DNA of 55,700 nt, taken from contig CADCBO010000025.1 in NCBI GenBank assembly GCA_902799685.1, positions 1 through 55,700 of the forward strand, given 5' to 3'. Within the stretch, counting starts at the first letter, position 1. Each line of letters opens with the position of its first letter. Positions 127-31,598 of this stretch are shown here, piece after piece. Origin of the DNA: an uncultured Bacteroidales bacterium. GTDB taxonomy: Bacteria > Bacteroidota > Bacteroidia > Bacteroidales > Bacteroidaceae. Below the pieces are notes generated by a model, which did not search any database, was not told the DNA's origin, and saw only the letters and a program-made list of their open reading frames with translations. A program made the translations under genes and the position numbers.

Positions 127-175
127 TCTCTCATTAACCCTTAGTCCCGCGTAAGCAACTCACAAAACTTTAATA

Positions 176-220
176 CTGCAGAATTATAACTTATTTTATA
201 ATAAGCTCTGCAGAGTTTTT
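176..220 (+). terminator. probable rho-independent terminator of upstream transcript
   Basis: CTGCAG at 176-181 pairs with CTGCAG at 208-213, and ATTATAA (183-189) with TTATAAT (196-202). A run of five T follows at 216-220. It separates whatever lies upstream from the lipid operon promoter. Confidence 0.45.
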
Positions 221-305: not shown

Positions 306-1580
306 ATGATTAAAGACATTTTTGAGAGAATCAAAGAGACTCCGGGCCCGCTCGGACAGTATCAGGGAATAGGCGACGGCTACTTTATGTTCCCCCGCCT
401 GGTGGGTGAAATAGGCCCTGAGATGGAGTTCAACGGCAAGCCCGTACTGAACTGGAGCCTTAACAACTACCTGGGTCTGGCTAACCACCCTGAGGTAAGA
501 AAGGCCGATGCCGAGGCAGCCGCCAAGTTTGGTCTTGGTGCTCCTATGGGTGCCCGCATGATGTCAGGTAATACTGATTATCACATCAAGTTTGAGAATG
601 ACTTCTCAGAGTTCGTAGGCAAGAAGGCAGGTCTGTGCCTCAACTTCGGCTATCAGGGCATGATCTCAATCATAGACGTCCTGACCAGCCGCAAGGACGT
701 TATCGTTTACGATTCAGAGAGCCACGCATGCATACTTGACGGTATGCGTCTTAGCCTGGCCAAGCGCTTTGCTTTCCAGCACAACAATATGCAGAGCCTT
801 GAGAAACAGCTTAACCACGCCTGCAAGCTGGCCGATGAGCAGGGCGGCGGCGTGCTGGTAATCACCGAGGGTGTATTCGGCATGGCCGGTGACCTGGGTC
901 ATCTTGCTGACATTGTAGAGTTCAAGAAGAAATATCCGTTCCGCATACTTATCGACGATGCACACGGTTTCGGTACCATGGGTGCCCACGGTCGTGGCAC
1001 CGCCGAGCATTACGGCGTTATCGACCAGATTGATGTTATCTTTGATGCATTCGCCAAGAGTATGGCATCAATCGGCGGAGTAGTAAGCTCAGAGCCCGAA
1101 ATCATTGACCACCTGAAGTGCAACATGCGCTCACAGATCTACGCCAAGTCACTGCCGCTGCCGCTGGTTATCGGTAACCAGAAGCGTCTTGACCTGATCA
1201 AGGCTCACCCAGAGTACCGCGAGCACCTGTGGGAGGTTGTTAACGCTCTGCAAGGCGGTCTCAAGGCTGAGGGCTTCAACATAGGCGTAACCGAGTCACC
1301 TGTAACACCCGTATTCTTTGAGGGTGGCGTGAACGAGGGCACCAACGTTGTAGTAGATCTGCGTGAGAACTATGGAATCTTCTGCTCAATCGTGACATAT
1401 CCCGTTATACCCAAGGGCCAGCTCATGCTGCGTATCATACCCACCGCTTCACATACTCTGGATCATGTTAAGCGTACCATTGAGGTCTTCAAGGATGTCC
1501 AGAAGAAGCTCAAGGCAGGTTACTATGAGGGCCCAATACAGGATATGAACGTATTCAAGCGTGCTCAAATAAAGAGATAA
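306..1580 (+). CDS. alpha-oxoamine synthase, probable cysteate fatty-acyltransferase (sulfonolipid synthesis)
   Basis: This is a PLP-dependent acyltransferase of the alpha-oxoamine synthase family (serine palmitoyltransferase, KBL, BioF) of 424 residues. Visible active-site features are the PLP-stacking His140 in SESHACILDG, Asp218 and His220 in IDDAHGFG, and Schiff-base Lys251 in DAFAKSMAS. By family it condenses an amino acid with a fatty acyl thioester, releasing CO2. The next gene, 1 bp downstream, looks like a cysteate synthase and the third is a short-chain reductase, so cysteate is the likeliest amino acid, giving 3-ketocapnine. This matches the cysteate acyltransferases described in Flavobacterium and Alistipes. 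The alternative is an ordinary serine palmitoyltransferase. The fold is certain; the substrate is inferred from context. Confidence 0.8.
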   Translation: MIKDIFERIKETPGPLGQYQGIGDGYFMFPRLVGEIGPEMEFNGKPVLNWSLNNYLGLANHPEVRKADAEAAAKFGLGAPMGARMMSGNTDYHIKFENDFSEFVGKKAGLCLNFGYQGMISIIDVLTSRKDVIVYDSESHACILDGMRLSLAKRFAFQHNNMQSLEKQLNHACKLADEQGGGVLVITEGVFGMAGDLGHLADIVEFKKKYPFRILIDDAHGFGTMGAHGRGTAEHYGVIDQIDVIFDAFAKSMASIGGVVSSEPEIIDHLKCNMRSQIYAKSLPLPLVIGNQKRLDLIKAHPEYREHLWEVVNALQGGLKAEGFNIGVTESPVTPVFFEGGVNEGTNVVVDLRENYGIFCSIVTYPVIPKGQLMLRIIPTASHTLDHVKRTIEVFKDVQKKLKAGYYEGPIQDMNVFKRAQIKR

Positions 1581-1581
1581 T

Positions 1582-2805
1582 ATGAAGTATCAGCTTGTCT
1601 GCAAGAAGTGCGGCAAGGTTATTGGAGATTTTGCCGCCTGGTTCAGCCAGGACCAGTTGTGTGAGTGTGGAAGCAATCACGCAGAGGTAACCTATACTTC
1701 CGATTACCGCTTCCTGGACGAACTCTGCAAGCCCGGTCAGAAGGTAGATAATCTCTACCACTACCTGCCCTTCCTGCCTCTTGATGAGGCTGATGAACAG
1801 GTAAGCATGGGTGAGGGCGCTGTACCAATTGAGGAGTGGGAATTCCTGAGCCGTTATGCAAAGGAAAACTACGGTATTGACTGCAAGGTTGTGGTGGCCC
1901 GCAATGACCTGAACGGCGGTTCCGGCACATTTAAGGACATAGCAGCATCACTGGCAGCCACGCTGTTCAAGAAACACGGAGTCAAGGAGTATTGCCTGGC
2001 ATCGACCGGCAACGCAGCTACCGCATACGCCACATATCTGGCAAAGGCTGGTGTCAAGTTTGATATTTTCGCCCCATGCGACATGTATCAGGAGTCACAG
2101 GACGCCATTCGTTCCGTAGGCCAGAACCTGGTAGTGTCAGAGGGCGGATACGGACAGGCTAAGACCGAGGCTGCCGATTTTCACAAGAATCAGAAGGTGA
2201 TGATATCGGCAGGCAACATAGACCCCATTCGTGTTGAAGCCAAGAAGACTTTGGTATTTGAATGCATGCGCCAGCTGGGCCGCATACCCGATGTCTATAT
2301 GCAGGCTGTAGCAGGAGGCACAAGTCCCATTGCATTCGAGAAAGGAATGCGTGAGATAGCCGATGCATATCCGCAGTACCGTATGCCCCGTATGCTGCTG
2401 GTTCAGCAGGATACCTGTGACCCTATGGTTCAGGCATGGGAATGGGCAATAGAGAACGGTTTTCCGCAGGGTTGGAACAAGCACTTCCCAACTGTAATCC
2501 CCAAAACGAGCATATCAATCCTTACAGCCGGAACCCCTGGCATGTATCCTCTTGTAGGTCCCATAGTCAAAAACAGCGGAGGCTCATTCCTACGCGTAAA
2601 GGAGGAGGGACTGGAGCGTTTCGGCCGTATGGTTAAGGATAACCAGGGTATCTATATGGGGCCGGCATCAGTGGTATGCATCGCCGGATTCTTCAAGGCA
2701 CTTGAGGAGAACAAGCTCAAGGACGGTGACCTGATCCTGCTCAACACCGGCGAGGGTTGCGAACGTGCCCGCTGGTTCAAACAGGCAATAGACAACTGCA
2801 AATGA
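1582..2805 (+). CDS. threonine-synthase-like PLP enzyme, probable cysteate synthase
   Basis: A fold-type II PLP enzyme of 407 residues related to threonine synthase. A four-cysteine zinc-ribbon-like start (C7, C10, C27, C29) precedes the catalytic domain; the PLP lysine is K118 in SGTFKDIAAS and a phosphate-binding-type STGNAATA follows. Cysteate synthases of this family replace the phosphate of O-phosphoserine with sulfite to make cysteate. That role is inferred because the gene is wedged between a fatty-acyl condensing enzyme and a ketoreductase, with no homoserine or threonine genes nearby. It starts 1 bp after the upstream stop and its TGA overlaps the next ATG. True threonine synthase remains possible but fits the context poorly. 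Confidence 0.75.
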   Translation: MKYQLVCKKCGKVIGDFAAWFSQDQLCECGSNHAEVTYTSDYRFLDELCKPGQKVDNLYHYLPFLPLDEADEQVSMGEGAVPIEEWEFLSRYAKENYGIDCKVVVARNDLNGGSGTFKDIAASLAATLFKKHGVKEYCLASTGNAATAYATYLAKAGVKFDIFAPCDMYQESQDAIRSVGQNLVVSEGGYGQAKTEAADFHKNQKVMISAGNIDPIRVEAKKTLVFECMRQLGRIPDVYMQAVAGGTSPIAFEKGMREIADAYPQYRMPRMLLVQQDTCDPMVQAWEWAIENGFPQGWNKHFPTVIPKTSISILTAGTPGMYPLVGPIVKNSGGSFLRVKEEGLERFGRMVKDNQGIYMGPASVVCIAGFFKALEENKLKDGDLILLNTGEGCERARWFKQAIDNCK

Positions 2806-3602
2806 ATAAGTTCAAGGATAAGGTAGTATGGATAACCGGTTCTTCATCGGGCATAGGTGAGGCTACCGCGTACGAGTTTGCCCGTGAGGGAGCCAACCTG
2901 ATTCTGACTGCACTTGAGGCCGACCTTTTGGAGAAGGTTGCAGCCCGCTGTGAAAAGTTAGGCTCACCCATAGCAATGACCCTACCCTTTGACCTTTCAC
3001 TTAAAGACCAGGTTGCCGAGCTTGCAGATAAGGCTTGGTCACTGTTCGGGCGCATTGATGTGTTCTACAACAACGCCGGCATCAGCCAGCGCGGCACCAC
3101 CTGTGAGACAGAAATGAAGGTAATCAACAAGGTCATGGACATCAACTGGTTCGCACCGGTTATAATGACCAAAGTGATACTGCCCAGGATGATAGAGCGC
3201 GGAGGAGGCCAGTTGGTTGTTACCACAAGCATCAACGGAAGGTTCGGATTCCCGCTGCGCTGTGCCTACAGTTCATCCAAGCACGCCTTATACGGATTCT
3301 TTGAGACCGTTCAGGCAGAGTACTACAAGGATAACATCCGCGTTACCATAGTATGCCCGGGCCGAGTACAGACCCGCATATCGTTCTACGCCCTGGAAAA
3401 GGACGGCAAACAGCACGCCAAGATGGATGCCGGACAAGCCGGAGGATGCACCCCCGAACAAGCCGGACGCAAGATAGTCAAGGCTGTTTACCGCCGCAAA
3501 CGTGAGGTTCTGGTAGGTCGTAAGGAGTTGCTTATGGTCTATATCAAGCGCTTCTTCCCGGGACTCTGCGCCAGGATAGCCCGCACAATCAATCCAATGT
3601 AA
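2802..3602 (+). CDS. short-chain dehydrogenase/reductase, probable 3-ketocapnine reductase
   Basis: A classical SDR of 266 residues. The nucleotide-binding motif TGSSSGIGE lies near the start, NNAG follows in the middle of the Rossmann fold, and the catalytic YSSSK is present; the C-terminal tail is basic and hydrophobic, as in membrane-associated lipid reductases. The start chosen is the ATG at 2802, which overlaps the previous stop (ATGA); an upstream in-frame ATG at 2757 lies deep in the preceding gene. In this operon the likely job is NAD(P)H reduction of the 3-keto group made by the acyltransferase, comparable to 3-ketosphinganine reductase. Confidence 0.75.
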   Translation: MNKFKDKVVWITGSSSGIGEATAYEFAREGANLILTALEADLLEKVAARCEKLGSPIAMTLPFDLSLKDQVAELADKAWSLFGRIDVFYNNAGISQRGTTCETEMKVINKVMDINWFAPVIMTKVILPRMIERGGGQLVVTTSINGRFGFPLRCAYSSSKHALYGFFETVQAEYYKDNIRVTIVCPGRVQTRISFYALEKDGKQHAKMDAGQAGGCTPEQAGRKIVKAVYRRKREVLVGRKELLMVYIKRFFPGLCARIARTINPM

Positions 3603-3624
3603 AAAACAAAAAACACATATAAGC

Positions 3625-5409
3625 ATGAAAAAAGAGATCCAGTTCAGCCTTGTCTATCGTGACATGTGGCAGTCATCGGGCAAATATGTGCCCCGTAAAG
3701 ACCAGCTAGCCAAGATAGCTCCCGTAATCATTGACATGGGATGCTTTGACCGTGTAGAGACCAACGGAGGTGCCATGGAGCAGGTTAACCTGCTTTACGG
3801 TGAGAACCCCAATCTGGCCGTCCGTACATTCACCAAGCCCTTTAACGAGGTAGGCATAAAGACCCATATGCTTGACCGCGGCCTGAACGCATTGCGCATG
3901 AACCCCGTTCCTGCCGATGTGCGTCAGCTCATGTATAAGGTAAAACATGCCCAGGGCGTTGACATAACACGTATATTCTGCGGTCTGAACGACCCGCGCA
4001 ACATCATCCCATCCATCAAGTGGGCCAAGGCAGCCGGCATGACCGCTCAGGCAACCATGTGCATCACCTACTCCAAGGTACACAATGCCGAGTACTACAT
4101 CAACCTGGCCGAGCAGCTCATAGAGGGCGGTGCACAGGAGATCTGCCTTAAGGATATGGCCGGCATAGGCCGTCCCGCCATGCTGGGCACAATAGTACGC
4201 GCCATCAAAGAGAAACATCCCGACATCATCATACAGTACCACGGCCACAACGGTCCCGGTTTTGCAGTAGCTTCAATGCTTGAGGTTGCAAAGGCCGGCG
4301 GTGACGTTCTGGATGTAGCCATGGAGCCGCTTTCATGGGGTAAGGTTCATCCCGATGTAATCACCATCCAGGCCATGCTCAAGGATGCCGGATTCCTGGT
4401 TAAGGACATCAACATGAAGGCTTACATGGAGGCACGTTCACTGACTCAGAGCTTCATGGACGATTTCCTGGGTTACTGGATAGACCCCAAGAACTCACTG
4501 ATGAGCTCACTGCTGGTAGGTTGCGGCCTGCCCGGCGGTATGATGGGATCACTTATGGCCGACCTTAAGGGTATGCACGCCGCCATTAACGCCAACCTCA
4601 AGAAAAAGGGTGAGAAGGAGCTGTCCGAGGACGAACTGTTGGTTGAGCTCTTTGACGAGGTACAGCGCATATGGCCCATGCTGGGTACTCCCTGTCTGGT
4701 TACACCTTTCAGCCAATATGTAAAGAACGCCGCCCTTATGAACCTCTACTCCAAGTCAATGGATGAGAAACCTTTCACCCGTATGGATCCTGCCATGTGG
4801 GGTATGGTACTTGGCAAGTCTGGCAAGCTGCCCGGCGAACTGGCTCCCGAGATTGTCCAAATTGCCAAGGAGAAAGGATTCGAGTTCTATACCGATGATC
4901 CTCAGGTGCTCTACCCCGACGAGCTCCCGCGCTTTGAGAAGGAGATGAAGGAGAACGGCTGGGACCGCGGCCAGGATGATGAGGAACTCTTTGAGTTTGC
5001 CATGCATGAGAAACAGTACCGCGAGTTCAAGAGCGGTCAGGCCAAGGACCAGTTCAACAAAGATCTTGTAGAACGCATGGAGAAGGCTATGAGCGGTGGA
5101 GGTTCCGGTGCAGATGTCAAGCACTTCACCGCTGCTGACAAACGTGCCATACTTCACCCGGATGCTGAGCCTATTGAGGCAGCTGCCAGCGGCCGCGTAT
5201 TCTGGGATCTGGATTACATGGACCAGTCATGCAATCCGCCTTATGGAAAATATTATAAGAAAGGAGACTGGATGTGCGGAATCCAGGCTATCGGCAACAC
5301 CTTCTTTGAGAACTCCACCGCCCCCTACGATTGCCATCTGGTAGCAGTAGACAAGGATCACGGCGCACTCGTGACCAAGGGCGAGGTCATCGGCTGGATT
5401 GAAAAATAA
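3625..5409 (+). CDS. OadA/pyruvate-carboxylase-B-like carboxyltransferase with lysine-less biotinyl domain
   Basis: The 594-residue product has a DRE-TIM barrel carboxyltransferase domain (YRDMWQS start, VETNGGA, LKDMAG with the catalytic-type lysine, HGHNGPG metal-binding histidines), then a conserved carboxylase domain and a C-terminal biotinyl-like fold at about 547-594. Where biotin carriers have (E/A)MKM this one reads IQAIGNTFFEN, so the lysine that carries biotin is absent. It may use carboxybiotin from a separate carrier such as the two-domain protein at 30843, or have a changed reaction. The gene begins 22 bases after the SDR and ends at a strong terminator, so it belongs to the sulfonolipid transcript. 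Oxaloacetate decarboxylase or pyruvate carboxylase activity is not established. Confidence 0.75.
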   Translation: MKKEIQFSLVYRDMWQSSGKYVPRKDQLAKIAPVIIDMGCFDRVETNGGAMEQVNLLYGENPNLAVRTFTKPFNEVGIKTHMLDRGLNALRMNPVPADVRQLMYKVKHAQGVDITRIFCGLNDPRNIIPSIKWAKAAGMTAQATMCITYSKVHNAEYYINLAEQLIEGGAQEICLKDMAGIGRPAMLGTIVRAIKEKHPDIIIQYHGHNGPGFAVASMLEVAKAGGDVLDVAMEPLSWGKVHPDVITIQAMLKDAGFLVKDINMKAYMEARSLTQSFMDDFLGYWIDPKNSLMSSLLVGCGLPGGMMGSLMADLKGMHAAINANLKKKGEKELSEDELLVELFDEVQRIWPMLGTPCLVTPFSQYVKNAALMNLYSKSMDEKPFTRMDPAMWGMVLGKSGKLPGELAPEIVQIAKEKGFEFYTDDPQVLYPDELPRFEKEMKENGWDRGQDDEELFEFAMHEKQYREFKSGQAKDQFNKDLVERMEKAMSGGGSGADVKHFTAADKRAILHPDAEPIEAAASGRVFWDLDYMDQSCNPPYGKYYKKGDWMCGIQAIGNTFFENSTAPYDCHLVAVDKDHGALVTKGEVIGWIEK

Positions 5410-5421
5410 CAATATTTCAGC

Positions 5422-5462
5422 AAAAAGAATTCGGTCGGAAAAAATCCGACCGAATTCTTTTT
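5422..5462 (+). terminator. rho-independent terminator
   Basis: A perfect 18-bp stem (AAAAAGAATTCGGTCGGA pairing with its reverse complement at 5445-5462) with an A-rich loop and a T-rich 3' arm follows the carboxyltransferase stop. It closes the 306-5409 operon. Confidence 0.85.
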
Positions 5463-7237: not shown

Positions 7238-8254
7238 TCAAATAGTGTCCAGGTAATCCTTGATTGCAAGGGCTGCGCTGCGGGCATCGTTGATAGAGTC
7301 CGATACACTCATGGGACGCTTGCAGGTACCGGCGGCAAAGAGCCCGGGCTTACCGGTTTCGTTGTCATACAGATGCGGATTGACTGTCCTGATGAAACCA
7401 TAGTCACCGCTTATGTCACAGGCCTTGCCCAATGACTTTGTTCCGCATGATGCCTCCATACCTACCATAAGTACCAGCAGGTCGGTAGTCATCTTGAGCG
7501 GCAGACCCATCAGGGTATCCTCACTCTTGAGCTGTACACGACCATCGAACGTACCGGCTGCTTCCGATATTCGGCCGCGCACAAAGCTTACGCCATATTT
7601 CTCCTGAGCTGTACGGTACATCTCCTCAAATCCCTGGCCCCACATGCGCAGGTCCATATAGAATACCGATGCCTCGCATTTGGGCAATTGCTTACGCACC
7701 TCTATTGCCTGCTTGACAGCTGTCACACAGCAAATCTTGGAGCAGTAGTGGTTACCGCTCTTTTCGTCACGCGAGCCCACGCACTGCAGGAAAGTCACGC
7801 GCTTGGGTTCGTCACCGTTTGCGTTCAGTATCTTGCCGTGCTTAATCATCTGCTCCATATCGAGCGATGTAATTACGCCCTTGTAAATGCCGTAACCCAG
7901 TTCTTCCTTACGGTGAGCATCAAAAACCTGATAACCGGTAGCGATGAGAACTGCATCAGTAACATATGTCTGAGCTTTGCTGTCGGTCAGTTTCCATTCG
8001 GTGCCTTGCCACTTAAGTTCAGAAATCTCAACACCGGAAACCAATGTTATGCCATCTACCAGCAACTTGCCGCTCAGGTCATCAATAATCTCCTGGGCCG
8101 CCTGGAAGTTGGGGAATAGGAACGCCTTGTCCTGCAGGTTCTTGAGCGGAGTCTCAGACTTCTCAAAAAGAGTAACCTCCACACCGCTTCTGGCCAGAAT
8201 TGATGCGGCTTCAATGCCGGCCGGGCCGGCTCCTATGATTGCAACTTTCTTCAT
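7238..8254 (-). CDS. HdrA-like FAD oxidoreductase subunit
   Basis: A short (338-residue) relative of heterodisulfide reductase subunit A or QmoA. The FAD-binding GAGPAG is at residues 8-13. The HdrA hallmark CVGSRDEKSG then YCSKICC follows near 175-195, and a second dinucleotide-binding ATGYQ segment lies at about 118. The C-terminal ferredoxin domains and N-terminal extension of methanogen HdrA are missing. It is the last gene of the five-gene Hdr operon, starting 1 bp after the HdrB-like gene. It probably takes or gives electrons from a soluble donor and passes them to the Fe-S subunits. Whether it bifurcates electrons cannot be told. Confidence 0.8.
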   Translation of the reverse strand: MKKVAIIGAGPAGIEAASILARSGVEVTLFEKSETPLKNLQDKAFLFPNFQAAQEIIDDLSGKLLVDGITLVSGVEISELKWQGTEWKLTDSKAQTYVTDAVLIATGYQVFDAHRKEELGYGIYKGVITSLDMEQMIKHGKILNANGDEPKRVTFLQCVGSRDEKSGNHYCSKICCVTAVKQAIEVRKQLPKCEASVFYMDLRMWGQGFEEMYRTAQEKYGVSFVRGRISEAAGTFDGRVQLKSEDTLMGLPLKMTTDLLVLMVGMEASCGTKSLGKACDISGDYGFIRTVNPHLYDNETGKPGLFAAGTCKRPMSVSDSINDARSAALAIKDYLDTI

Positions 8255-8255
8255 A

Positions 8256-9311
8256 TCAAACTAAAAGGTTTTCGGGTTTCTCCGGAGCACGCAGTATCTT
8301 GCCCGATGCGGAGTTGTATTTCTGTTTGGGATCATAAGGAATGCCTATCTTGTCAAGCAGGCGCTCGCACTGAACCTGATGTATCTGGAGGCCCAGAACC
8401 CACGGGTCATATCCAAGCAGCAGACCTGCCATCTCCTCATACGTGAGCACCGGAATGCCGTAGCCCTCACGGTCATATGTCTTGTGCTCCATCTCGGCAA
8501 TGGTATATTGCCAACGGTCCAGGAACATACTACAACCAGGACAATTGGACACAATGAAATCAGGCTCGTACGGCTCCATTGACTCCAGTTTCTTCTTGGT
8601 GTTGGAAACTGAGTAGCCACGGTTCTCCTGAACCAGATACTGGCGGAATCCGAATCCGCAGCAGTGACGACGCTCGGGATAATCCACCACATGGCCGCCC
8701 CATGCCTCTATCATACCGGCCAGCACATACGGGAACTCCGCCTTGCCCACGCCCTTGTCAGGGAACAGCTTGGCATAATGGCATCCTATATGCTCCACCA
8801 CATTCAGCGGTTTACCGGTAAAACGGTTCACCAGGCGGTATTTCATCTTCTCGGCCAGTTCAAAGCGGTACTTGAAAATCAGGTCCGACGGATGAGCCAC
8901 GTTCTTGGGCATTTCAAATTCCCGTTTGCAGGCCTTGTACAGATTCTCACGGGTCTGCTCCAGCAGTTCCGGATGCTCCTGCCACATGTGTATCATTTCG
9001 GTGAACACGCCGAATGATGTAATACATGACGGAACCAGATTTTCATATCCGCGCTCGGTCATAAGTGAGAATATGCGAGCTACAACTGTCATAGTGGTCT
9101 CAAGCGGAACCACATCGGTATGATAACCTATTCCGGTGCACGTATGCAGACGGAAATCATCAAAGATATCCTTACCTAGCTCATCCTTCATTATCTTAAG
9201 GAAAGCTGTCTCTGAACCCGGAAAGAAGGTCTGGCGTATGCAGCTGCGCTCGTAATAGTAGCGGTCATCTGCTATTGTCTTCTGATATTCGTTCCAATAA
9301 CGGTTTGCCAT
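8256..9311 (-). CDS. HdrB-like CCG-domain subunit
   Basis: A 351-residue subunit of the heterodisulfide reductase B type. The second CCG domain is complete: a Cys in HIGCHYAK, then HCCGFGF, then NCPGC, the ligands of the noncubane [4Fe-4S] cluster in HdrB. The first CCG domain is degenerate, with single cysteines in place of CCG (HTCTGIG) and CxxC (PSCITSF), so probably one catalytic cluster remains. The start taken is ATG at 9311; an in-frame TTG at 9317 is less likely. It sits between the HdrDE-like and HdrA-like genes. The natural substrate, a disulfide or another thiol compound, is unknown. Confidence 0.8.
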   Translation of the reverse strand: MANRYWNEYQKTIADDRYYYERSCIRQTFFPGSETAFLKIMKDELGKDIFDDFRLHTCTGIGYHTDVVPLETTMTVVARIFSLMTERGYENLVPSCITSFGVFTEMIHMWQEHPELLEQTRENLYKACKREFEMPKNVAHPSDLIFKYRFELAEKMKYRLVNRFTGKPLNVVEHIGCHYAKLFPDKGVGKAEFPYVLAGMIEAWGGHVVDYPERRHCCGFGFRQYLVQENRGYSVSNTKKKLESMEPYEPDFIVSNCPGCSMFLDRWQYTIAEMEHKTYDREGYGIPVLTYEEMAGLLLGYDPWVLGLQIHQVQCERLLDKIGIPYDPKQKYNSASGKILRAPEKPENLLV

Positions 9312-9318
9312 AATCAAT

Positions 9319-11274
9319 TCAGTTTATAAGATTCTCTGCCACCACCTCGGCAATATCTCTTACAGGATAGTCATTAGTGGCGTGCTGGAACGCTTTCTTG
9401 CACATGGGGCATGCCGTCACTATTGCATCTACCGGCTTGCTGGTCAGGTTCTCCAGCGACGCGTTCCTTATAGCAGTCTGCTCCTCTATGCCAAGCTTTG
9501 TATTACCCAGATTGAATCCGCAGCACACACTCTTCTCGCGCTGGAAACGGGTCTTCTGCAGGTTGGTCACAGCATTCAACACCTCGCGGGGTTCTTCATA
9601 TATTCCGCAGCCACGCCCCAGCTCACAGGGATCATGATATGAAACCTTGCGGTCATCATGACGCACCTTTATCCTACCCTGCTTTATCAGCATATCAATG
9701 TACTCTGTATGGTGTATGACAGGAATATTCAGATTATACTCTTTAGTGAATGACTGGTAGCATATAGGACACGATGTCACAAGCATAGTGGAACCTGACT
9801 TAAGAATCATGTCAGTGTTCTTCTGACGCAGTTCTGCCGCCTGGTTCAGGAATCCCTGCTGTTGCAGCGGACGTCCGCAGCAGATGGTGCTCTGCCTGTC
9901 CATATACCAGTACTTCTGGTCGGCAGCATTGAAAATCTTTTCCATAGACTCCGTGATACCCGGAGTAAGATGTGACATACAGCCTCCAAAGTATGCCACA
10001 CGTCCTATTGCATTGAACGGAGCCTGTTTTTTTGCCAGATACTTGTAATTACCCGTGGTATCCAGTTTACCCTTGTCACGAGTCATACGGCGCAGAGCAC
10101 TCAGGTCAATTCCGACAGGACAGTCAACAGTGCATCGGTCACACATCAGGCAGTTGTCGGCAATCATCTTTAGGCGGCTGCCACGCTCCTGGTTACGCAA
10201 GCTGCGTATCAGATATACAGACTGTATCTCATGATTCTCCAGCACTTTGTCCATCGGGCAGCCCGATATACAGACACCGCAACGGGAGCAGGCGTTCAGT
10301 TCAAAATATGTGTATCCGGTTTTCCTGGGGCCTTCAGTCACACCAATCTTACGGAACCAGATGAGGAGCAGTTCCGTAAAGATATGCATGTAACGGGTAA
10401 ACGGCATGGTCACAAAGAACACGCCCAGCATAAGCGAGTAGAACATCCAGAGTGATGTCTCCATACCGCGTACAATCATGGGATCAAACAGATTACCAAC
10501 CGCCTGCGTAAAGAAACCTCCGTTGCCGTACAGACAGGCAGTAACCGATTCGGCAAGCAGACGCAACGGGAATATCATCCACAATGAGAACTTGCAGAAC
10601 CTGTCAACCAGAGTATGCTTGGTAGTACGGCGCATTCCCAGTATCTTGGACCAGAATATCTTGATCATGGCCATGGTCAGCCCCAGGAACACATACAGCA
10701 GCAACGCATCCATCATGTCGGCGTACCCCTTGTGCTTACGGAACGATGCCGGAGCCTTATGTACAAAATAACGATAGAAAATACCTACATAGAAAGGACG
10801 ATCATAGTCTATTCTGGCTATTCCTTCCTCTGTCTCTACCCTGTAACGGCGTTGGTTAAGATATTCGGGGTTCTTGTCCTCTCCGGTTGTGCGGAAATGC
10901 CATCCGTTCTGCTGCTGCAGCTCACGCAGATACTCTATAGACTGCTCATGCTGCATCGTGTAGAACGCGTCACGGCTCTCAATGGCACCAACTACAATAA
11001 GCAGGAACCAACCCAGGGCAAATGCCTGATGCATAATACCCAACAGGATATTCTTCTTGAAGATACGCACATGGAGCAATCCCTCACGAATCATCTCCCA
11101 TACCGCGGGAATAATCTTCCATGAGTACCAGTTGTGTCTTATCACCTCACGCTGCTCATCGCTGAAACGCCTTATCCATTTGATATATTTGAATATAATG
11201 ATGGTGAACAGCAGCACTGTCCCTATCAGGAACGGGATGACAAAGTCATTGTACGGATAAGCATGTATCTTCAT
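9319..11274 (-). CDS. membrane-bound HdrDE/DsrMK-like iron-sulfur fusion subunit
   Basis: A 651-residue fusion. Residues 1-300 hold about five membrane segments of the HdrE/NarI-gamma type, the likely site of quinone exchange. These are followed by two [4Fe-4S] motifs (CSRCGVCISGCP; CLMCDRCTVDCP) and two complete CCG domains (GGCMSH, CCGRP, SCPICY; DPCELG, CCGFN, ACPMC), as in HdrD and DsrK. It anchors the complex in the cytoplasmic membrane and could link menaquinone to a thiol/disulfide couple. It overlaps the upstream HdrC-like gene by 4 bases. The donor and acceptor are not deducible from sequence. Confidence 0.8.
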   Translation of the reverse strand: MKIHAYPYNDFVIPFLIGTVLLFTIIIFKYIKWIRRFSDEQREVIRHNWYSWKIIPAVWEMIREGLLHVRIFKKNILLGIMHQAFALGWFLLIVVGAIESRDAFYTMQHEQSIEYLRELQQQNGWHFRTTGEDKNPEYLNQRRYRVETEEGIARIDYDRPFYVGIFYRYFVHKAPASFRKHKGYADMMDALLLYVFLGLTMAMIKIFWSKILGMRRTTKHTLVDRFCKFSLWMIFPLRLLAESVTACLYGNGGFFTQAVGNLFDPMIVRGMETSLWMFYSLMLGVFFVTMPFTRYMHIFTELLLIWFRKIGVTEGPRKTGYTYFELNACSRCGVCISGCPMDKVLENHEIQSVYLIRSLRNQERGSRLKMIADNCLMCDRCTVDCPVGIDLSALRRMTRDKGKLDTTGNYKYLAKKQAPFNAIGRVAYFGGCMSHLTPGITESMEKIFNAADQKYWYMDRQSTICCGRPLQQQGFLNQAAELRQKNTDMILKSGSTMLVTSCPICYQSFTKEYNLNIPVIHHTEYIDMLIKQGRIKVRHDDRKVSYHDPCELGRGCGIYEEPREVLNAVTNLQKTRFQREKSVCCGFNLGNTKLGIEEQTAIRNASLENLTSKPVDAIVTACPMCKKAFQHATNDYPVRDIAEVVAENLIN

Positions 11275-11618
11275 CTTCTTCCCGTTTTTTCAGGTTCATC
11301 AAGTATCTGGCGCATACTGATAATCAGTGAGCGCAGGTTCACTCCACGCGGGCAAACCAATGTGCATTTGCCGCAAAGCATGCATTTGCGCAGTTCATCG
11401 GCCAGACCGTCATACTCACCTCTGCGGAATGAGGTGTGTACGCGGCGTATGCTGAAATCGGTAAACTGGCGGGCCGAGCAAGTGGCGCTGCAGTTACCGC
11501 ACTGAAAGCAACGCTTGAATGAAGGTTCAAGGTCCAACAGACGGTTGTATTTATCAAGCGAGACCTTATCCATATTCTCCTGCCTGGTCTGCTTTAAGGC
11601 GAATCCGAACTCAATCAT
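11271..11618 (-). CDS. HdrC-like [4Fe-4S] ferredoxin subunit
   Basis: A small 115-residue iron-sulfur protein with two CxxCxxCxxxC motifs: C37, C40, C43, C47 and C79, C82, C85, C89, the second followed by PRG. This is the HdrC pattern. It overlaps both neighbours by a few bases, showing tight translational coupling. It should relay electrons between the HdrA-like flavoprotein and the CCG subunits. Confidence 0.8.
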   Translation of the reverse strand: MIEFGFALKQTRQENMDKVSLDKYNRLLDLEPSFKRCFQCGNCSATCSARQFTDFSIRRVHTSFRRGEYDGLADELRKCMLCGKCTLVCPRGVNLRSLIISMRQILDEPEKTGRR

Positions 11619-12228
11619 CCTGCTTTCCGTTTAATATGGCATCATGGAAATCCATTCCGCCTGTAACCTTGAAAATGTTGCGCAGGTCCTCCATCGTCTC
11701 AGGGCAAATCTCACGCAGCGCACCGGCACCCTGACCGTGATAGTTGGCACCCAGTTTGGGAGCCACCTCCTTTATGTTCTTGATGTACCACTCCCATGCG
11801 GGGCCCTGTTCCGGATGCATATGGGGAGGCACCTTATCCGGGTGTACACAGTAACCTATCTCAAGTATGTTATTGCCGATGACATTCATCAGAGTTGTCT
11901 GCTGGCGTCCCATACGGCTCTCCTTGTAGTAACCCATCTCCTGAGATACCTTGCGCAGAATGTTGATTACAGCACCGGGGACATTGCCACGCGGACAACG
12001 CGGCTTGCATGACATACACTGTCCGCAGTACCAGATTGTATCTTCACGCAGCAGTTTCTCTACCTGTTCCTCATCACCGCGCTGCACTGTGTCGCATATA
12101 CGGCGGGGGTCATAGTCATAAAACTCTGCAGCCGGGCATATAGCGGTACAGATACCGCAGTTCATACAGGCCTTGAGCGAGTCCTCATAGCGGACATCTG
12201 ACCTTATTAAATCTATGAGATTTCCCAT
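11611..12228 (-). CDS. HdrC-like [4Fe-4S] subunit, first gene of operon
   Basis: A 205-residue protein with an N-terminal ferredoxin module: C21, C24, C27, C31 (CMNCGICTAICP) and C68, C71, C74, C78 (CGQCMSCKPRCP). A C-terminal extension of about 110 residues lacks further cysteine clusters. It is a second HdrC paralogue in the same operon, longer than the first and leading the transcript. An operon with two HdrC-type proteins and one membrane HdrDE resembles Qmo or Hdr-like complexes of anaerobes rather than the methanogen set. Confidence 0.78.
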   Translation of the reverse strand: MGNLIDLIRSDVRYEDSLKACMNCGICTAICPAAEFYDYDPRRICDTVQRGDEEQVEKLLREDTIWYCGQCMSCKPRCPRGNVPGAVINILRKVSQEMGYYKESRMGRQQTTLMNVIGNNILEIGYCVHPDKVPPHMHPEQGPAWEWYIKNIKEVAPKLGANYHGQGAGALREICPETMEDLRNIFKVTGGMDFHDAILNGKQDD

Positions 12229-12338: not shown

Positions 12339-13418
12339 TTACCTGTCAAACTTCTTGCGGTTCATCTTCATGGCGCGGAACAGCAGTTTAGAGAGAGGTT
12401 TCTCACGGTTACGGTAAAGCAGATTGATGTACCAGCCCAGTTTCTTGGCCACCGATATGCGGTAAGTCTCCACAAACTCTATCAGCGTTCCGTCATTATC
12501 CTCTATATATGTAAAACGGCCCGATGCGTCACCCATTGCGAACTGCTTGCCGTCCGGGCAGCTGTCAACAGTGAACGGATATCCATGGTCTGCACACCAT
12601 TTGCCCAACTCATCCATGCCGGTCACGTCAAAGCATATCTGTATGAATCCGGGGTCGCCCCAATAGCGCCCTTCAAAGATCTTGCGGGGCTCACGGTCAC
12701 GGGCTTGTACCAGCTCTATGTATCCTGTGGGAAATATGGGAGCAAAAGCGCCTTTATTAGGCTTGGGACACTTGAGCAAAGTACGGCGGAACTCGCCGTC
12801 ACCGCCTGCCAATGGCTTAAGGTCATCAAAATGGCCGTATTCGTTGTAGATAACCTGATTGTACCCCAGAATATCGGAATAAACGGTACGGGCCTTGTCC
12901 ATATCGGTCACACCTATCATACAGCCCAGCATACCACCAAATTCCTTACCTTCATCCAGCAGCAGGTAATCATCCTGCACGGCCTGGAACCAGTTGCCCT
13001 CGGGATCGGTTATATAGAATGTGGTATTTCCGTCAGGAGCAGTTACTATGGGGCTTACCTTATCCCAACGTTCCGATGCATACTTGTGCGCACTCTCCAC
13101 ATTGCGGCATTTAACCTTGGCACAGAATATGCCCAGGTCACCCACCTGGATCTGGAAACCCACCGGCTTGGGCTTACGCTCCGAATACTGCCATATCTCG
13201 AATCCGCCACCACCTTGCAGGCTTACGGCTATCGCGGCATGACGCTTGCGCGGATGGCCGCCCGTATATGGAAGCATACGCTCTGCCACAGTGTCATCCT
13301 CAAGAACGCGTATGTCAACGCCAAACATCTTGATGAACCATTTCCATGAATCATATACTGATGTGGTGCCTACTCCTATCTGCTGAATACCGGTTATAAA
13401 GAAACTGTCTTTATCCAT
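12339..13418 (-). CDS. VOC (glyoxalase/bleomycin-resistance fold) protein, HPPD-like
   Basis: A 359-residue protein of two vicinal-oxygen-chelate modules, at roughly residues 8-135 and 165-310, with a basic C-terminal tail (about 315-359). The overall plan resembles 4-hydroxyphenylpyruvate dioxygenase and related enzymes, and the second module has the NDGTLIEFVE-type metal-ligand end. Oxygen-dependent catalysis would be surprising in an anaerobe, so an isomerase- or lyase-like VOC reaction is as likely. It has its own promoter and ends about 110 bases before the Hdr operon start. No substrate is assigned. Confidence 0.65.
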   Translation of the reverse strand: MDKDSFFITGIQQIGVGTTSVYDSWKWFIKMFGVDIRVLEDDTVAERMLPYTGGHPRKRHAAIAVSLQGGGGFEIWQYSERKPKPVGFQIQVGDLGIFCAKVKCRNVESAHKYASERWDKVSPIVTAPDGNTTFYITDPEGNWFQAVQDDYLLLDEGKEFGGMLGCMIGVTDMDKARTVYSDILGYNQVIYNEYGHFDDLKPLAGGDGEFRRTLLKCPKPNKGAFAPIFPTGYIELVQARDREPRKIFEGRYWGDPGFIQICFDVTGMDELGKWCADHGYPFTVDSCPDGKQFAMGDASGRFTYIEDNDGTLIEFVETYRISVAKKLGWYINLLYRNREKPLSKLLFRAMKMNRKKFDR

Positions 13419-28474: not shown

Positions 28475-28888
28475 ATGAAACCATCACACATTGAGCATCT
28501 CGGCATAGCCGTTACCTCACTGGAGGAGACAATGCCGTTCTTTGAGTTTTTGACAGGCAGCAAGTGCTACAACATTGAAGAGGTTGCAGACCAGAAGGTA
28601 AAGACCGCTTTCTTCAAGGTAGGCCAGACCAAGATTGAGCTTCTGGAGCCCACATGCCCCGAATCAACAATAGCCAAGTTCATTGAGAAGAACGGCGGCA
28701 AGGGTGGTATCCATCACGTTGCATTCAATGTCGAGAACGTAGCTGAGGCCCTTAAGGAGGCTGAGGCAGCCGGCCTGCGTCTTATTGACCTGCAGCCGCG
28801 CAAGGGCGCCGAGAACCTGATGATTGCTTTCCTGCACCCCAAATCAACATGCGGCGTGCTGACAGAGATTTGTGAACAACCCAAATAA
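28475..28888 (+). CDS. mce: methylmalonyl-CoA epimerase
   Basis: A 137-residue VOC-fold enzyme with metal-ligand histidines in HIEHLGIAV and GGIHHVAF and the final acidic ligand in GVLTEICE. It interconverts (R)- and (S)-methylmalonyl-CoA. In this operon it links succinyl-CoA-derived (R)-methylmalonyl-CoA to the decarboxylase downstream, the last carbon step of propionate formation. It leads a five-gene operon with gaps of only 10 to 24 bases. Confidence 0.92.
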   Translation: MKPSHIEHLGIAVTSLEETMPFFEFLTGSKCYNIEEVADQKVKTAFFKVGQTKIELLEPTCPESTIAKFIEKNGGKGGIHHVAFNVENVAEALKEAEAAGLRLIDLQPRKGAENLMIAFLHPKSTCGVLTEICEQPK

Positions 28889-28900
28889 GTGATATAGAAA

Positions 28901-30457
28901 ATGGATAACAGCAAGCTTCAGAAGCTGGTAGACAAGCGCGCCCAGGCAATGGCCGGCGGCGGCGAAAAAGCTGTTGAGAAGCATCACGCAAAAGGCAGCT
29001 ATACTGCCCGTGAGCGCATAAACATGCTTCTTGACGAGGGATCATTTGAGGAGGTCGATATGTTCCTGACCCACCGTTGTACAGACTTCGGTATGGACAA
29101 GAAGGTATTCCTGGGTGACGGCGTAGCCGTAGGTTCAGGTACCATTGACGGCCGTCTGGTATATGTATTTGCACAGGATGCCACAGTCATAGGCGGTTCT
29201 CTGTCAGAGACCATGGCACAAAAGATATGCAAGGTCATGGATATGGCCATGAAGATGGGTGCTCCCATCATCGGTCTGAACGATTCAGGCGGTGCACGTA
29301 TCCAGGAGGGCGCATGCGCTCTGGCCGGTTACGCCGAGATATTTGAGCGTAACATCCTGGCATCGGGCGTTGTACCCCAGATTTCAGTCATTTTCGGCCC
29401 CTGCGCCGGTGGTGCTGTTTACAGCCCTGCCCTGACTGACTTCATAATGATGACCGAGCAGAACTCATACATGTTCATTACCGGACCTAAGGTTGTAAAG
29501 AGCGTTACCGGTGAGGATGTTACTGTTGAGCAGCTGGGCGGTGCCCGCGTTCACGCCACCAAGTCCGGTGTGACTCATTTTGTGGCTGCCACAGAAGATG
29601 AGGCCATGCAGGAGATCCGCCGTCTCATCAGCTTCATCCCGCAGAACAACATGGAAGAGCCTCCCGTAAAGGAGTGCAAGGATGACCCCGCACGCTTGGA
29701 GGATGCCCTGAACTCTATGGTTCCTGATGATCCCAACAAGCCTTATGATATGAAGAACATCATCTACTCTATAGTTGATGACGGTGACTTCATGGAGGTA
29801 CACAAGGATTATGCCAAGAATGTTATCTGCGGTTTTGCACGTTTCAACGGCCGCTCAACCGGTATCATAGCAAACCAGCCCAACTGGCTGGCAGGCGTGC
29901 TTGACTGCGACGCTTCACGCAAGGCTGCCCGCTTTGTACGTTTCTGCGACGCATTCAATATCCAGATCCTCACTCTGGTCGATGTACCCGGATTCCTTTG
30001 CGGTACAGGTCAGGAGTATGCCGGTATCATCGATCACGGTGCAAAGCTGATGTTCGCTTACGGCGAGGCTACAGTTCCAAAGGTAACCGTTACAGTACGT
30101 AAGTCATATGGCGGCTCACACATCGTTATGAGCTGCAAGCAGCTGCGCGGTGACCTGTGCTACGCATGGCCAAATGCCGAGATAGCAGTAATGGGTGCCA
30201 GCGGTGCCGTAGGTGTACTGGAAGCCAAGGCTCTCAAGGCCATCGAGGATCCTGAGGAGAAGAAGAAATTCATTGCCGAGAAGGAGGCCGAGTACAAGGA
30301 CAAGTTCGCTTCTCCCTACCAGGCAGCCAACCGTGGTTATATTGACGATGTTATTGAGCCGCGTTACACACGCGCCCGCATCATTCGCGGCTTTGAGCAG
30401 TTGCAGACCAAGCGCCTGACCAACCCGCTCAAGAAGCACAGCAACATTCCACTCTAA
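28901..30457 (+). CDS. mmdA: methylmalonyl-CoA decarboxylase alpha subunit (carboxyltransferase)
   Basis: A 518-residue acyl-CoA carboxyltransferase. The N- and C-terminal crotonase-like halves show GLNDSGGARIQEG, the oxyanion-hole VIFGPCAGGAVYSPAL, LVDVPGFLCG and MGASGAVGVL. It moves CO2 from methylmalonyl-CoA to biotin on the carrier protein, yielding propionyl-CoA. It could also serve in propionyl-CoA carboxylase complexes, which use the same subunit; the oadG and oadB genes downstream favour the decarboxylase. Confidence 0.92.
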   Translation: MDNSKLQKLVDKRAQAMAGGGEKAVEKHHAKGSYTARERINMLLDEGSFEEVDMFLTHRCTDFGMDKKVFLGDGVAVGSGTIDGRLVYVFAQDATVIGGSLSETMAQKICKVMDMAMKMGAPIIGLNDSGGARIQEGACALAGYAEIFERNILASGVVPQISVIFGPCAGGAVYSPALTDFIMMTEQNSYMFITGPKVVKSVTGEDVTVEQLGGARVHATKSGVTHFVAATEDEAMQEIRRLISFIPQNNMEEPPVKECKDDPARLEDALNSMVPDDPNKPYDMKNIIYSIVDDGDFMEVHKDYAKNVICGFARFNGRSTGIIANQPNWLAGVLDCDASRKAARFVRFCDAFNIQILTLVDVPGFLCGTGQEYAGIIDHGAKLMFAYGEATVPKVTVTVRKSYGGSHIVMSCKQLRGDLCYAWPNAEIAVMGASGAVGVLEAKALKAIEDPEEKKKFIAEKEAEYKDKFASPYQAANRGYIDDVIEPRYTRARIIRGFEQLQTKRLTNPLKKHSNIPL

Positions 30458-30469
30458 AAGCCAGAGTCT

Positions 30470-30832
30470 ATGATGACACCATTAGTAATAAACTGGTCAC
30501 ACGTCTGGATGGTAACCGGACTGGGATTCTGCATGGTAATCCTGCTTCTGGTCGTGCTCATCTTCATTCTGAAACTGCTGGGCGCAGTTGTCAGCAATGC
30601 AGTGAAGGCACCCAAGGCTGCAGAGCCAAAAGCAATCTCCGCTCCCGCCGCCCAGACAGCTCCGGCAAGCGTTAAGGCTTCGGCCGATGACGACCTTGCC
30701 GCCATAGCAATGGCTCTGCACCTGTACTTCAACGGGGTACATGACGTGGAACCCACCGAGATTCATATCAAGAGAGTAGAGCGCTCAGGCTGGAATTCCA
30801 AGCTCTACGGAATGAACAACTTGCATCGTTAA
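30470..30832 (+). CDS. OadG-type small membrane subunit
   Basis: A 120-residue subunit with one N-terminal membrane helix (LGFCMVILLLVVLIFILKLLG), an Ala/Pro-rich linker (about 45-72) and a short C-terminal soluble part (ADDDLAAIAMALHLYF). OadG/MmdD subunits tether the carboxyltransferase and biotin carrier to the membrane pump. It is one of the five co-transcribed genes. Confidence 0.85.
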   Translation: MMTPLVINWSHVWMVTGLGFCMVILLLVVLIFILKLLGAVVSNAVKAPKAAEPKAISAPAAQTAPASVKASADDDLAAIAMALHLYFNGVHDVEPTEIHIKRVERSGWNSKLYGMNNLHR

Positions 30833-30842
30833 TAGAAATTTT

Positions 30843-31574
30843 ATGAAAGAGTTTAAGTTTACAATAGACGGCAAGCAGTACAATGCAGCTGTCAACGAAC
30901 TTGAGGACAACTTTGCCGAGGTTACAATCAACGGCAAGACCTACAAGGTAGAGTTAGAGAAGGAGGAGGCCCCTGCAGCCGCAGCTGTACGCCGTCCCGC
31001 CGCTGCCGCAGCTCCTGCAGCAGCGGCTCCTGCCGGCCTGATGACCGTAAAGTCACCGCTGCCCGGCTCAATCGTGAAAGTACTCGTCAAGGCCGGTCAG
31101 GCTGTAAAGAAGGGCGATGTACTGCTCACCATGGAATCAATGAAGATGGAGAACAACGTCTGTGCCGATGCCGACGGTACTGTAAAGGCCGTTTACGTAG
31201 AGCCCGGCAAGACCGTCATGCAAGATGACAAGCTGCTTGACATTGAAACTGTAGCCGTCGCTGCAGCTCCCGCACCTGCACCCGCACCCAAGGCAGAGGC
31301 TCCAAAAGCCGCTCCTGCTCCCAAGGCAGAGGCACCAAAGGCTGCCGATGTTCCCGCAGGCGGTTACAAGGTAACCAGCCCCCTGCCCGGTTCAGTAATC
31401 AAGGTTCTGGTTCAGGAGGGTCAGGATGTCAAGAAAGGTGACACACTGCTCACTCTTGAGAGTATGAAGATGGAGAACGCCATTATGGCCGACCGCGACG
31501 GCAAAGTGACCAAGATTGCCGTAACCGCCGGTCAGAACGTCATGCAGGAGGACCTGCTCCTGGTTCTTGGATAA
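30843..31574 (+). CDS. biotin carrier protein with two biotinyl domains
   Basis: A 243-residue biotin carboxyl carrier. After an N-terminal module (1-45) and an Ala/Pro linker come two complete biotinyl domains: the first at about 65-137 with ESMKMENN (biotin Lys101), the second at about 175-243 with ESMKMENA (Lys209). The linker between them carries repeats of PAPKAEAPKAA. Most decarboxylase carriers (MmdC type) have one such domain of about 120-150 residues in total. Both lysines and the flanking glycines are intact, so both could carry carboxybiotin between MmdA and the OadB-type pump, and possibly to the lysine-less OadA-like protein at 3.6 kb. Confidence 0.9.
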   Translation: MKEFKFTIDGKQYNAAVNELEDNFAEVTINGKTYKVELEKEEAPAAAAVRRPAAAAAPAAAAPAGLMTVKSPLPGSIVKVLVKAGQAVKKGDVLLTMESMKMENNVCADADGTVKAVYVEPGKTVMQDDKLLDIETVAVAAAPAPAPAPKAEAPKAAPAPKAEAPKAADVPAGGYKVTSPLPGSVIKVLVQEGQDVKKGDTLLTLESMKMENAIMADRDGKVTKIAVTAGQNVMQEDLLLVLG

Positions 31575-31598
31575 TCAACATTTCCAAACTGAAAGAAA

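Follow-up and report, generated by a model that had tools for sequence, protein, structure and literature searches.

The window analysed here, 55,700 nucleotides of DNA from an uncultured Bacteroidales bacterium of the Bacteroidaceae (assembly GCA_902799685.1, contig CADCBO010000025.1), is the start of contig 25 in a 37-contig assembly of 2.8 Mb and 86% completeness (G000), and it opens with a putative sulfonolipid operon of four genes, all on the forward strand, at positions 306-5409. Gene 1 (306..1580, 424 amino acids (aa)) encodes an alpha-oxoamine synthase of the cysteate fatty acyltransferase (CFAT/SulA) type, and gene 2 (1582..2805, 407 aa) a pyridoxal phosphate (PLP) enzyme that is a candidate cysteate synthase (CS) of a clade, CS1, lying outside the curated model TIGR03844. 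Gene 3 (2802..3602, 266 aa) encodes a short-chain dehydrogenase (SDR), a candidate 3-ketocapnine reductase, and gene 4 (3625..5409, 594 aa) an OadA/5S-like carboxyltransferase (OAD), the C-terminal biotinyl-like domain of which lacks the biotin lysine. An intrinsic terminator on the same strand (5422..5462), an 18-pair hairpin followed by a T run, closes the unit; its folding energy of -26.7 kcal/mol (z -7.1) was not equaled by any of 200 shuffles. An earlier note, made from the sequence alone, had described four co-directional genes and a terminator, with gaps of 0-4 and 22 bases. This layout was confirmed, the junctions measuring +1, -4 and +22 bases and the gene 3 ATG overlapping the gene 2 stop, and profile scans agreed with the family labels given there (alpha-oxoamine synthase, PALP/threonine-synthase-like, SDR and OadA-like). 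The contig holds only 305 bases upstream of gene 1, including a forward-strand hairpin and T run (165..216; -13.2 kcal/mol, z -3.5) that is possibly the terminator of a preceding unit. A scan of the window against Rfam at gathering threshold returned no match.

The best named matches come from gut metagenome genomes, with water buffalo, yak, deer, reindeer, sheep and horse among the samples, and bear the labels Bacteroidaceae, Prevotellaceae or Bacteroidales; Candidatus Colenecus caballi is among them. The four-gene arrangement is not due to chance, because the order CFAT-CS-SDR-OAD recurs in 21 of the 35 named loci fetched by gene 1. The other 14 comprise six contig ends, four variants within the genus (L052 and L056 with OAD and without SDR, L054 and L055 without OAD), three distant loci without OAD, in which the CFAT is 66-74% identical, and one lone distant CFAT. 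Ratios of nonsynonymous to synonymous substitution (dN/dS) for the four genes against five relatives fall between 0.01 and 0.09, except in one comparison with saturated dS. To these named loci we added a comparison set of 37 genomes of the genus, 24 other Bacteroidaceae genera (one genome each) and 40 genomes of other families, designated by G handles; the two collections represent in part the same genomes.

The closest solved relatives of the gene 1 product are PDB entries 7u7h (4.2e-181) and 28eh, the latter titled 'Cysteate-C-fatty acyltransferase', with serine palmitoyltransferases (SPT) scoring far lower. The PDB title of 7u7h names a synthetase-like enzyme, which we take to be SulA. This identity fits a SulA mutagenesis primer printed in PMC9304779. 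On a midpoint-rooted tree of 44 rows with some long branches, gene 1 lies among 40 CFAT rows that a 100/99 branch sets apart from three SPTs and one other synthase. The PLP lysine Lys251 and Lys281 (the gene 1 lysine motifs being FAKSMA and SQIYAKSLP) are conserved in 40/40 CFAT rows, and the Lys281 site is occupied by alanine in 3/3 SPT rows, in keeping with a section of PMC9304779 in which Lys281 sets SulA apart from Spt. By these criteria gene 1 encodes a SulA-type cysteate fatty acyltransferase of predicted activity, grouping with SulA and not with SPT. Its resemblance to the known systems, represented by SulA of Alistipes finegoldii (alfi_1224) and by CapB/CFAT of Flavobacterium, Capnocytophaga and Chryseobacterium, is nearly full-length (to 7u7h and 28eh) and extends to both lysines, whereas here the gene shares an operon with a synthase and a reductase. 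CFAT matches of at least 56% identity, whole or as fragments, occur in 36/37 genomes of the genus and in none of the 24 other Bacteroidaceae genera, where the gene 1 matches are 33-37% identical and an SPT over cut-off is present in 24/24. A second CFAT lineage in five genomes of the genus (L131-L133, L140, L141, L162) groups with G078 of another family, which suggests horizontal transfer.

Gene 2 carries the N-terminal zinc-ribbon-like cysteines, a CxxC...CxC set, to which the earlier note had drawn attention, with small variations among the CS1 alignment rows; its PLP lysine presumably lies in GTFKD. Where that note had looked for both gene 1 and gene 2 to match characterised enzymes of the pathway, gene 1 did so (SulA, 28eh) and gene 2 did not, scoring under every NCBIfam cut-off (110.5 bits against 324.9 for TIGR03844, 145.5 against 303 for PRK08197, and 54.3 for TIGR00260). 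Evidence for its function comes instead from the distribution of a second type, CS2. The four CS2 proteins scanned, of which three belong to the genus and one to another family, pass TIGR03844 with 409-443 bits over 324.9, and PDB 9k3c ('Cysteate synthase') is matched at 3e-149. Among the 37 genomes of the genus, 30 harbor CS1 only, five CS2 only, none both and two neither (G003 and G012, 77% and 81% complete; P = 4.8e-5, kinship ignored), and in the 40 genomes of other families six CS1-like and six CS2 carriers do not overlap. Because CS1 and the bona fide TIGR03844 enzyme replace each other in this way, we infer that gene 2 encodes a cysteate synthase belonging to a clade beyond the reach of the curated model. 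The archaeal-type enzyme (TIGR03844, 9k3c) belongs to the same PLP superfamily and stands in for gene 2 in sister species, but the N-terminal cysteine cluster of gene 2 was not seen in the single TIGR03844-type alignment row. Relatives of CS1 adjoin CysH-CysD-CysN in G082 (L146) and are close to CysD in G070 (L255). Passages of PMC10191378 describe the use of a homolog of the archaeal cysteate synthase by Alistipes and Odoribacter; CS2 fits that homolog, and CS1 would form another branch.

A cysteate synthase of the CapA type (NF053679, cut-off 600), presumed to make the same product as gene 2, was also sought and rejected, with no match over cut-off in the 101 genomes. Gene 2 is not among the matches to this model, which scores CysK-like proteins, the best in the window genome (229 bits) being its CysK. 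Further loci of the CS1 clade are L145-L147, L035, L061 and L062.

Gene 3 belongs to the SDR family (PRK06181, 235.5 bits over 215; PF00106), and an SDR follows CS1 in most loci of the genus and in three distant loci with CFAT-CS-SDR linkage (L060-L062). Its clustering with CFAT and CS supports, without proving, its assignment as a plausible 3-ketocapnine reductase. Sections of PMC11211663 report that several distant SDRs are able to reduce 3-ketocapnine and that the kcr genes of C. gleum and A. finegoldii are not clustered with cfat and Cys.

The gene 4 product contains PF02436 and PF00682 domains, remains below all NCBIfam cut-offs (TIGR01108, 187 bits against 756.5) and finds its best PDB relative in transcarboxylase 5S (1rqb). 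It retains the RD..Q motif and residues D13, K176, H206 and H208, which we take to form the metal site. The C-terminal 74 residues are biotinyl-like and align with the true biotinyl domains of a longer OadA type; as a working biotin domain, however, this tail was rejected, since the lysine-less-type rows shown have lost the lysine of the EAMK motif. No other part of the protein is conserved so little, the mean identity over 27 rows of the genus being 74.6% in the tail and 97.2% in the barrel (L047 and L138, which are frameshifted or cut, do not enter these averages). The AlphaFold model, with a mean confidence score (pLDDT) of 46.9, is usable mainly in the tail, which is beta and scores 71-83 from residue 541 (the last 54 residues) and 48-74 over residues 501-540; a Foldseek search with it returned pyruvate carboxylase and 5S, agreeing with the sequence and adding little. 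Gene 4 shares with transcarboxylase 5S, OadA and PycB the HMGL-like barrel, the PYC_OADA domain and the metal-site residues, and differs from them in falling under curated cut-offs, in its lysine-less biotinyl-like tail and in having no OadB adjoining, its neighbors being the SDR and a HerA-like gene. The window encodes an OadB-like protein only at 31599, in a decarboxylase operon. Gene 4 most likely encodes a lysine-less 5S-like carboxyltransferase of dicarboxylate metabolism and no sulfonolipid enzyme.

The distribution of gene 4 supports this assignment. OadA-like matches occur in 20 of the 24 other Bacteroidaceae genera, none of which has CFAT; the alignment spans the whole length, as for the lysine-less type, in 15 of these and not in the other five. 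In other families such matches, of both types, are found in 13/40 genomes. Among 13 lysine-less loci read outside the genus (six in the family, seven elsewhere), none has CFAT, CS or SDR adjoining; in one (G061) the lysine-less OAD adjoins genes for a VOC protein and HdrC2. Within the genus, gene 4 is kept between EamA and TatC genes (both confirmed by Pfam scan) in G016, G028 and G034, where the trio of genes 1-3 is missing. Conversely, the CFAT loci of G001, G018, G027 and G035 are devoid of OAD, and these genomes encode elsewhere an OadA of 614-616 aa that has a biotinyl match, the biotin lysine being seen in the two that were read (G001 and G027). Beyond the genus, none of the CFAT loci read has an OAD next to CFAT (in L157 CFAT was not called by the script). 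Conservation of the OadA-like gene in the operon, for which the earlier note had proposed to look, therefore holds within the genus and not in the CFAT loci read beyond it, and on these sequences gene 4 is inherited separately from the trio.

Since its own tail has no biotin lysine, gene 4 needs a biotin carrier in trans. A candidate is encoded on the forward strand of the window by an operon for methylmalonyl-CoA epimerase and an MmdA-OadG/MmdD-MmdC-MmdB decarboxylase (28475..32777), the MmdC of which (30843-31574) carries a pair of biotinyl domains with an ESMKM site in each. A double-domain MmdC, identified by length and match, is present in 29 of the 31 genomes of the genus with a lysine-less OadA (none was found in G022 and G024) and in none of the four with the other type, G003 and G009 being left out of this count because their OadA could not be typed. 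Gene 4 would thus probably be a piece of central metabolism, a 5S-like partner of MmdC, co-transcribed with the trio.

In the mechanism that we propose, gene 2 would combine phosphoserine and sulfite into cysteate, as known cysteate synthases do, gene 1 would condense cysteate with acyl-acyl carrier protein into 3-ketocapnine, and gene 3 would reduce 3-ketocapnine to capnine. Gene 4 would move CO2 between oxaloacetate/pyruvate and biotin, outside the sulfonolipid pathway, its carrier in trans being most likely the double-domain MmdC of methylmalonyl-CoA decarboxylase. We regard it as reasonably likely that genes 1-3 account for the three opening steps in the synthesis of capnine-type sulfonolipids and that gene 4 is a co-transcribed, MmdC-dependent carboxyltransferase, most likely outside the pathway. 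The three-enzyme sulfonolipid set recognized in the earlier note is upheld in that gene 1 goes with SulA and not SPT, and that gene 2 is distinct from ThrC and excludes the TIGR03844 enzyme within the genus. The assignment of the OadA-like gene to the pathway, tempting on the basis of a shared transcript alone, is corrected.

Several observations weigh against this interpretation. All counts and P-values ignore the kinship of the genomes, many of which are incomplete. Gene 2 misses the TIGR03844 cut-off, and long branches left unsettled its position on a tree with archaeal cysteate synthase and threonine synthases, which was not used for membership. The SDR assignment of gene 3 is generic. Of the 25 named loci of the genus that reach far enough, 23 have gene 4 behind the trio or behind CFAT-CS, and in G030 a gene of its type lies between CS1 and a CFAT of another lineage (CS1-OAD-CFAT), so selection for co-expression of gene 4 with the trio is possible. 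The correlation with MmdC fails outside the genus, where many genomes with OadA-like matches of the full-length type have a single-domain MmdC, and G037 seems to pair a double-domain MmdC with the other OadA type. Transcarboxylase 5S acts together with 12S and 1.3S subunits; the window encodes MmdA and the double-domain MmdC, and the correlation of the latter with lysine-less OadA is confined to the genus. Finally, part of PMC11575231 attributes propionyl-CoA formation in a related rumen bacterium to a sodium-pumping decarboxylase and not to a transcarboxylase, which calls for caution on a 5S-like role.

A different partner for the trio may be encoded next door. On the reverse strand, the window contains a cluster for a heterodisulfide reductase (Hdr)-like complex: an HdrA-like FAD protein corresponding to the C-terminal part of HdrA2 only (7238..8254; NF040770, 225.5 bits, profile positions 317-555 of 777), an HdrB-like CCG protein (8256..9311; NF041780, 137 bits, PF02754), a membrane protein, HdrDE, with an HdrD/DsrK-like 4Fe-4S region and two CCG domains (9319..11274; PF02754, Fer4), and two HdrC-like 4Fe-4S proteins (HdrC1, 11271..11618, identified by profile scans, and HdrC2, 11611..12228, NF041779, 89 bits). 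HdrDE has three strong hydrophobic segments before residue 211 and CCG motifs at 465 and 584. The next gene on this strand (12339..13418) encodes a VOC protein of the glyoxalase/dioxygenase superfamily (PF00903), a gene often found beside SDR genes in other families. With the sHdr, QmoABC and DsrMK systems the cluster shares HdrA-like, HdrB-like and two HdrC-like proteins and a CCG/4Fe-4S membrane subunit; it differs from them in its short HdrA, in the fusion of the HdrD-type subunit to hydrophobic segments and in its linkage to lipid genes. Relative to sHdr, subunit types are similar and gene order and fusion are different.

HdrB and VOC are each present in 36/37 genomes of the genus and in 0/24 other Bacteroidaceae genera, and in 10/40 and 15/40 genomes, respectively, of other families. 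CFAT or CS1 accompanies HdrB in 46/46 genomes and VOC in 50/51 (the exception being G003). Over the 40 genomes of other families, this association gave Fisher P-values of 0.0011 for VOC and 0.019 for HdrB when scored against CFAT or CS1, and of 0.04 and 0.07 against CFAT alone. In G016, G024, G028 and G034 the genes form an array on a single strand with operon-like spacing, CFAT-SDR-HdrC2-HdrB-HdrA-HdrC1-HdrDE-CS2, in G024 preceded by VOC and with junctions of -8 to +9. The array of G068, a genome from another family, reads HdrC2-HdrB-HdrA-HdrC1-HdrDE-CS2 and contains cysteate synthase alone of the lipid genes, and in G018 an HdrDE fragment precedes CS2 at a contig end. The operons of G016, G034 and G068 are full copies, because tblastn located the genes that longest-open-reading-frame calling had skipped. 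These Hdr-linked operons are found at loci L234, L235, L236, L237, L238 and L248.

That the Hdr genes of four sister species share one operon with the genes for cysteate synthase, acyltransferase and reductase suggests the Hdr complex as a source of sulfite. According to this explanation, which we put forward tentatively and hold to be somewhat doubtful, the missing partner of the trio is not OadA; it is the Hdr-like complex, which would oxidize reduced sulfur to sulfite, pass the electrons to menaquinone and so feed cysteate synthase without sulfate assimilation. Oxidation of sulfide to sulfite with fumarate as the electron sink is feasible by textbook potentials. The window genome (86% complete) has no match to PF01507 (CysH/CysD), and matches better than 1e-25, weaker ones being counted as absent, occur in 7/37 genomes of the genus, the one in G005 falling in a 901 aa frame that perhaps encodes a different protein. 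In the 47 genomes carrying CS1 or CS2, PF01507 is found in 8/40 with HdrB and in 6/7 without (P = 0.0016); the same comparison restricted to genomes outside the genus yields 1/5 against 6/7 (P = 0.07). Such a contrast is as expected of two alternative sulfite sources, yet across the 26 CFAT-bearing genomes of other families it is weak (5/9 with HdrB against 14/17 without, P = 0.19). The explanation is further opposed by the location of the Hdr cluster, which in nine of the ten Hdr-positive genomes outside the genus is not beside CFAT or CS (clusters read, a second G086 copy aside), by an HdrA that spans only part of the HdrA2 profile, and by a gene set unlike that of sHdr. The sHdr gene set for sulfite formation includes a lipoate-binding protein. 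Kinship is ignored in these counts as well.

It is conceivable, at rather less than even probability, that sulfonolipid-making Bacteroidales without sulfate assimilation possess a dedicated HdrABC-type and DsrMK-like complex that turns sulfide-level sulfur into sulfite for cysteate synthase, with menaquinone and fumarate as the sink, and that VOC, perhaps acting as an epimerase, could fix the stereochemistry of 3-ketocapnine ahead of the SDR. The nearby electron-transfer cluster may be the overlooked partner, and a better lead than gene 4. In the 12 VOC regions read in other families, out of 15 genomes with VOC, an SDR adjoins VOC in six, lies within about 3 kb in three (one of these SDRs only 33% identical) and does neither in three. 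SDRs 42-48% identical to gene 3 stand directly beside VOC in six Bacteroidales families (L172, L177, L180, L182, L184, L188). A PDB sequence search with the VOC protein at 0.01 yielded no match, and its AlphaFold model, with a mean pLDDT of 45.5, was too poor for a structure search.

The proposal of the earlier note, that the OadA-like product takes part in the sulfonolipid pathway or feeds it, for instance by acting on sulfopyruvate, an oxaloacetate analog, or by channeling pyruvate/serine carbon to cysteate, now appears improbable. It can draw on the genus-wide conservation of the operon (23/25 named loci), on the adjacency to CS1 in the rearranged G030 locus and on the lost biotin lysine, which makes a biotin-free reaction conceivable. 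It is contradicted by the relatives of gene 4 in Bacteroidaceae genera that have no CFAT or CS1 matches, by the retention of gene 4 where the trio is missing, and by its absence from the CFAT loci of four sister genomes and from those read outside the genus, with the reservation for L157 given above.

Equally unlikely, in our judgment, is that gene 2 encodes a specialized threonine synthase or another PLP beta-replacement enzyme. Its top NCBIfam and PDB scores are indeed to threonine synthases, but all the NCBIfam scores are below cut-off, and the genome encodes a canonical ThrC (305.6 bits over 167.1) and a CysK over cut-off. Moreover, the TIGR03844 enzyme substitutes for gene 2 in sister species and one relative lies beside CysHDN. 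As far as the sequences indicate, threonine synthesis in the cell falls to ThrC and not to gene 2. That gene 1 is an SPT and the operon makes ordinary sphingolipids is barely credible: the two share a superfamily and the SPT model NF047600 is the best NCBIfam model for gene 1, but its 310 bits are half the cut-off of 640, Lys281 replaces the alanine of SPT, the protein groups with SulA, and a canonical SPT is encoded on contig 13 (G000:C13:10769-11944; 674 bits over 640). With this separate SPT in addition to gene 1, the genome has genes for the initial steps of sphingolipid as well as sulfonolipid synthesis, and the organism probably produces sphingolipids besides sulfonolipids.

The preferred assignment, genes 1-3 as a sulfonolipid cassette with gene 4 outside the pathway, concerns a pathway that is already known. 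New to the literature searched are the compact gene arrangement, its occurrence in a genus of the Bacteroidaceae, the CS1 clade and the linkage to Hdr and VOC; with most subscription papers beyond reach, neither the operon, nor its association with Hdr, nor sulfonolipids from this genus were found reported there. According to PMC9304779, gut Alistipes and Odoribacter are known sources of sulfonolipids, and these lipids influence inflammation in mouse models. If the operon works as proposed, a Bacteroidaceae genus of herbivore guts, equipped with a three-gene cassette, would join the sulfonolipid producers, and these new producers would carry a cysteate synthase clade overlooked by the curated model. 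The Hdr linkage makes testable where the sulfite for these lipids originates in anaerobes without sulfate assimilation.

An EamA-family permease gene (299 aa) precedes the operon in many loci of the genus (e.g., L040:6550-7449), a position that in the window lies beyond the contig end. Between the operon and the Hdr unit, the window encodes a HerA-like ATPase (5506-7116; PF05872), the place and strand of which vary among relatives. In two CFAT-CS-SDR operons (L061:11357-13258 and L062) the SDR is followed by a gene for a 633 aa protein, which in L061 has weak similarity to PurF (123 bits against a cut-off of 350).

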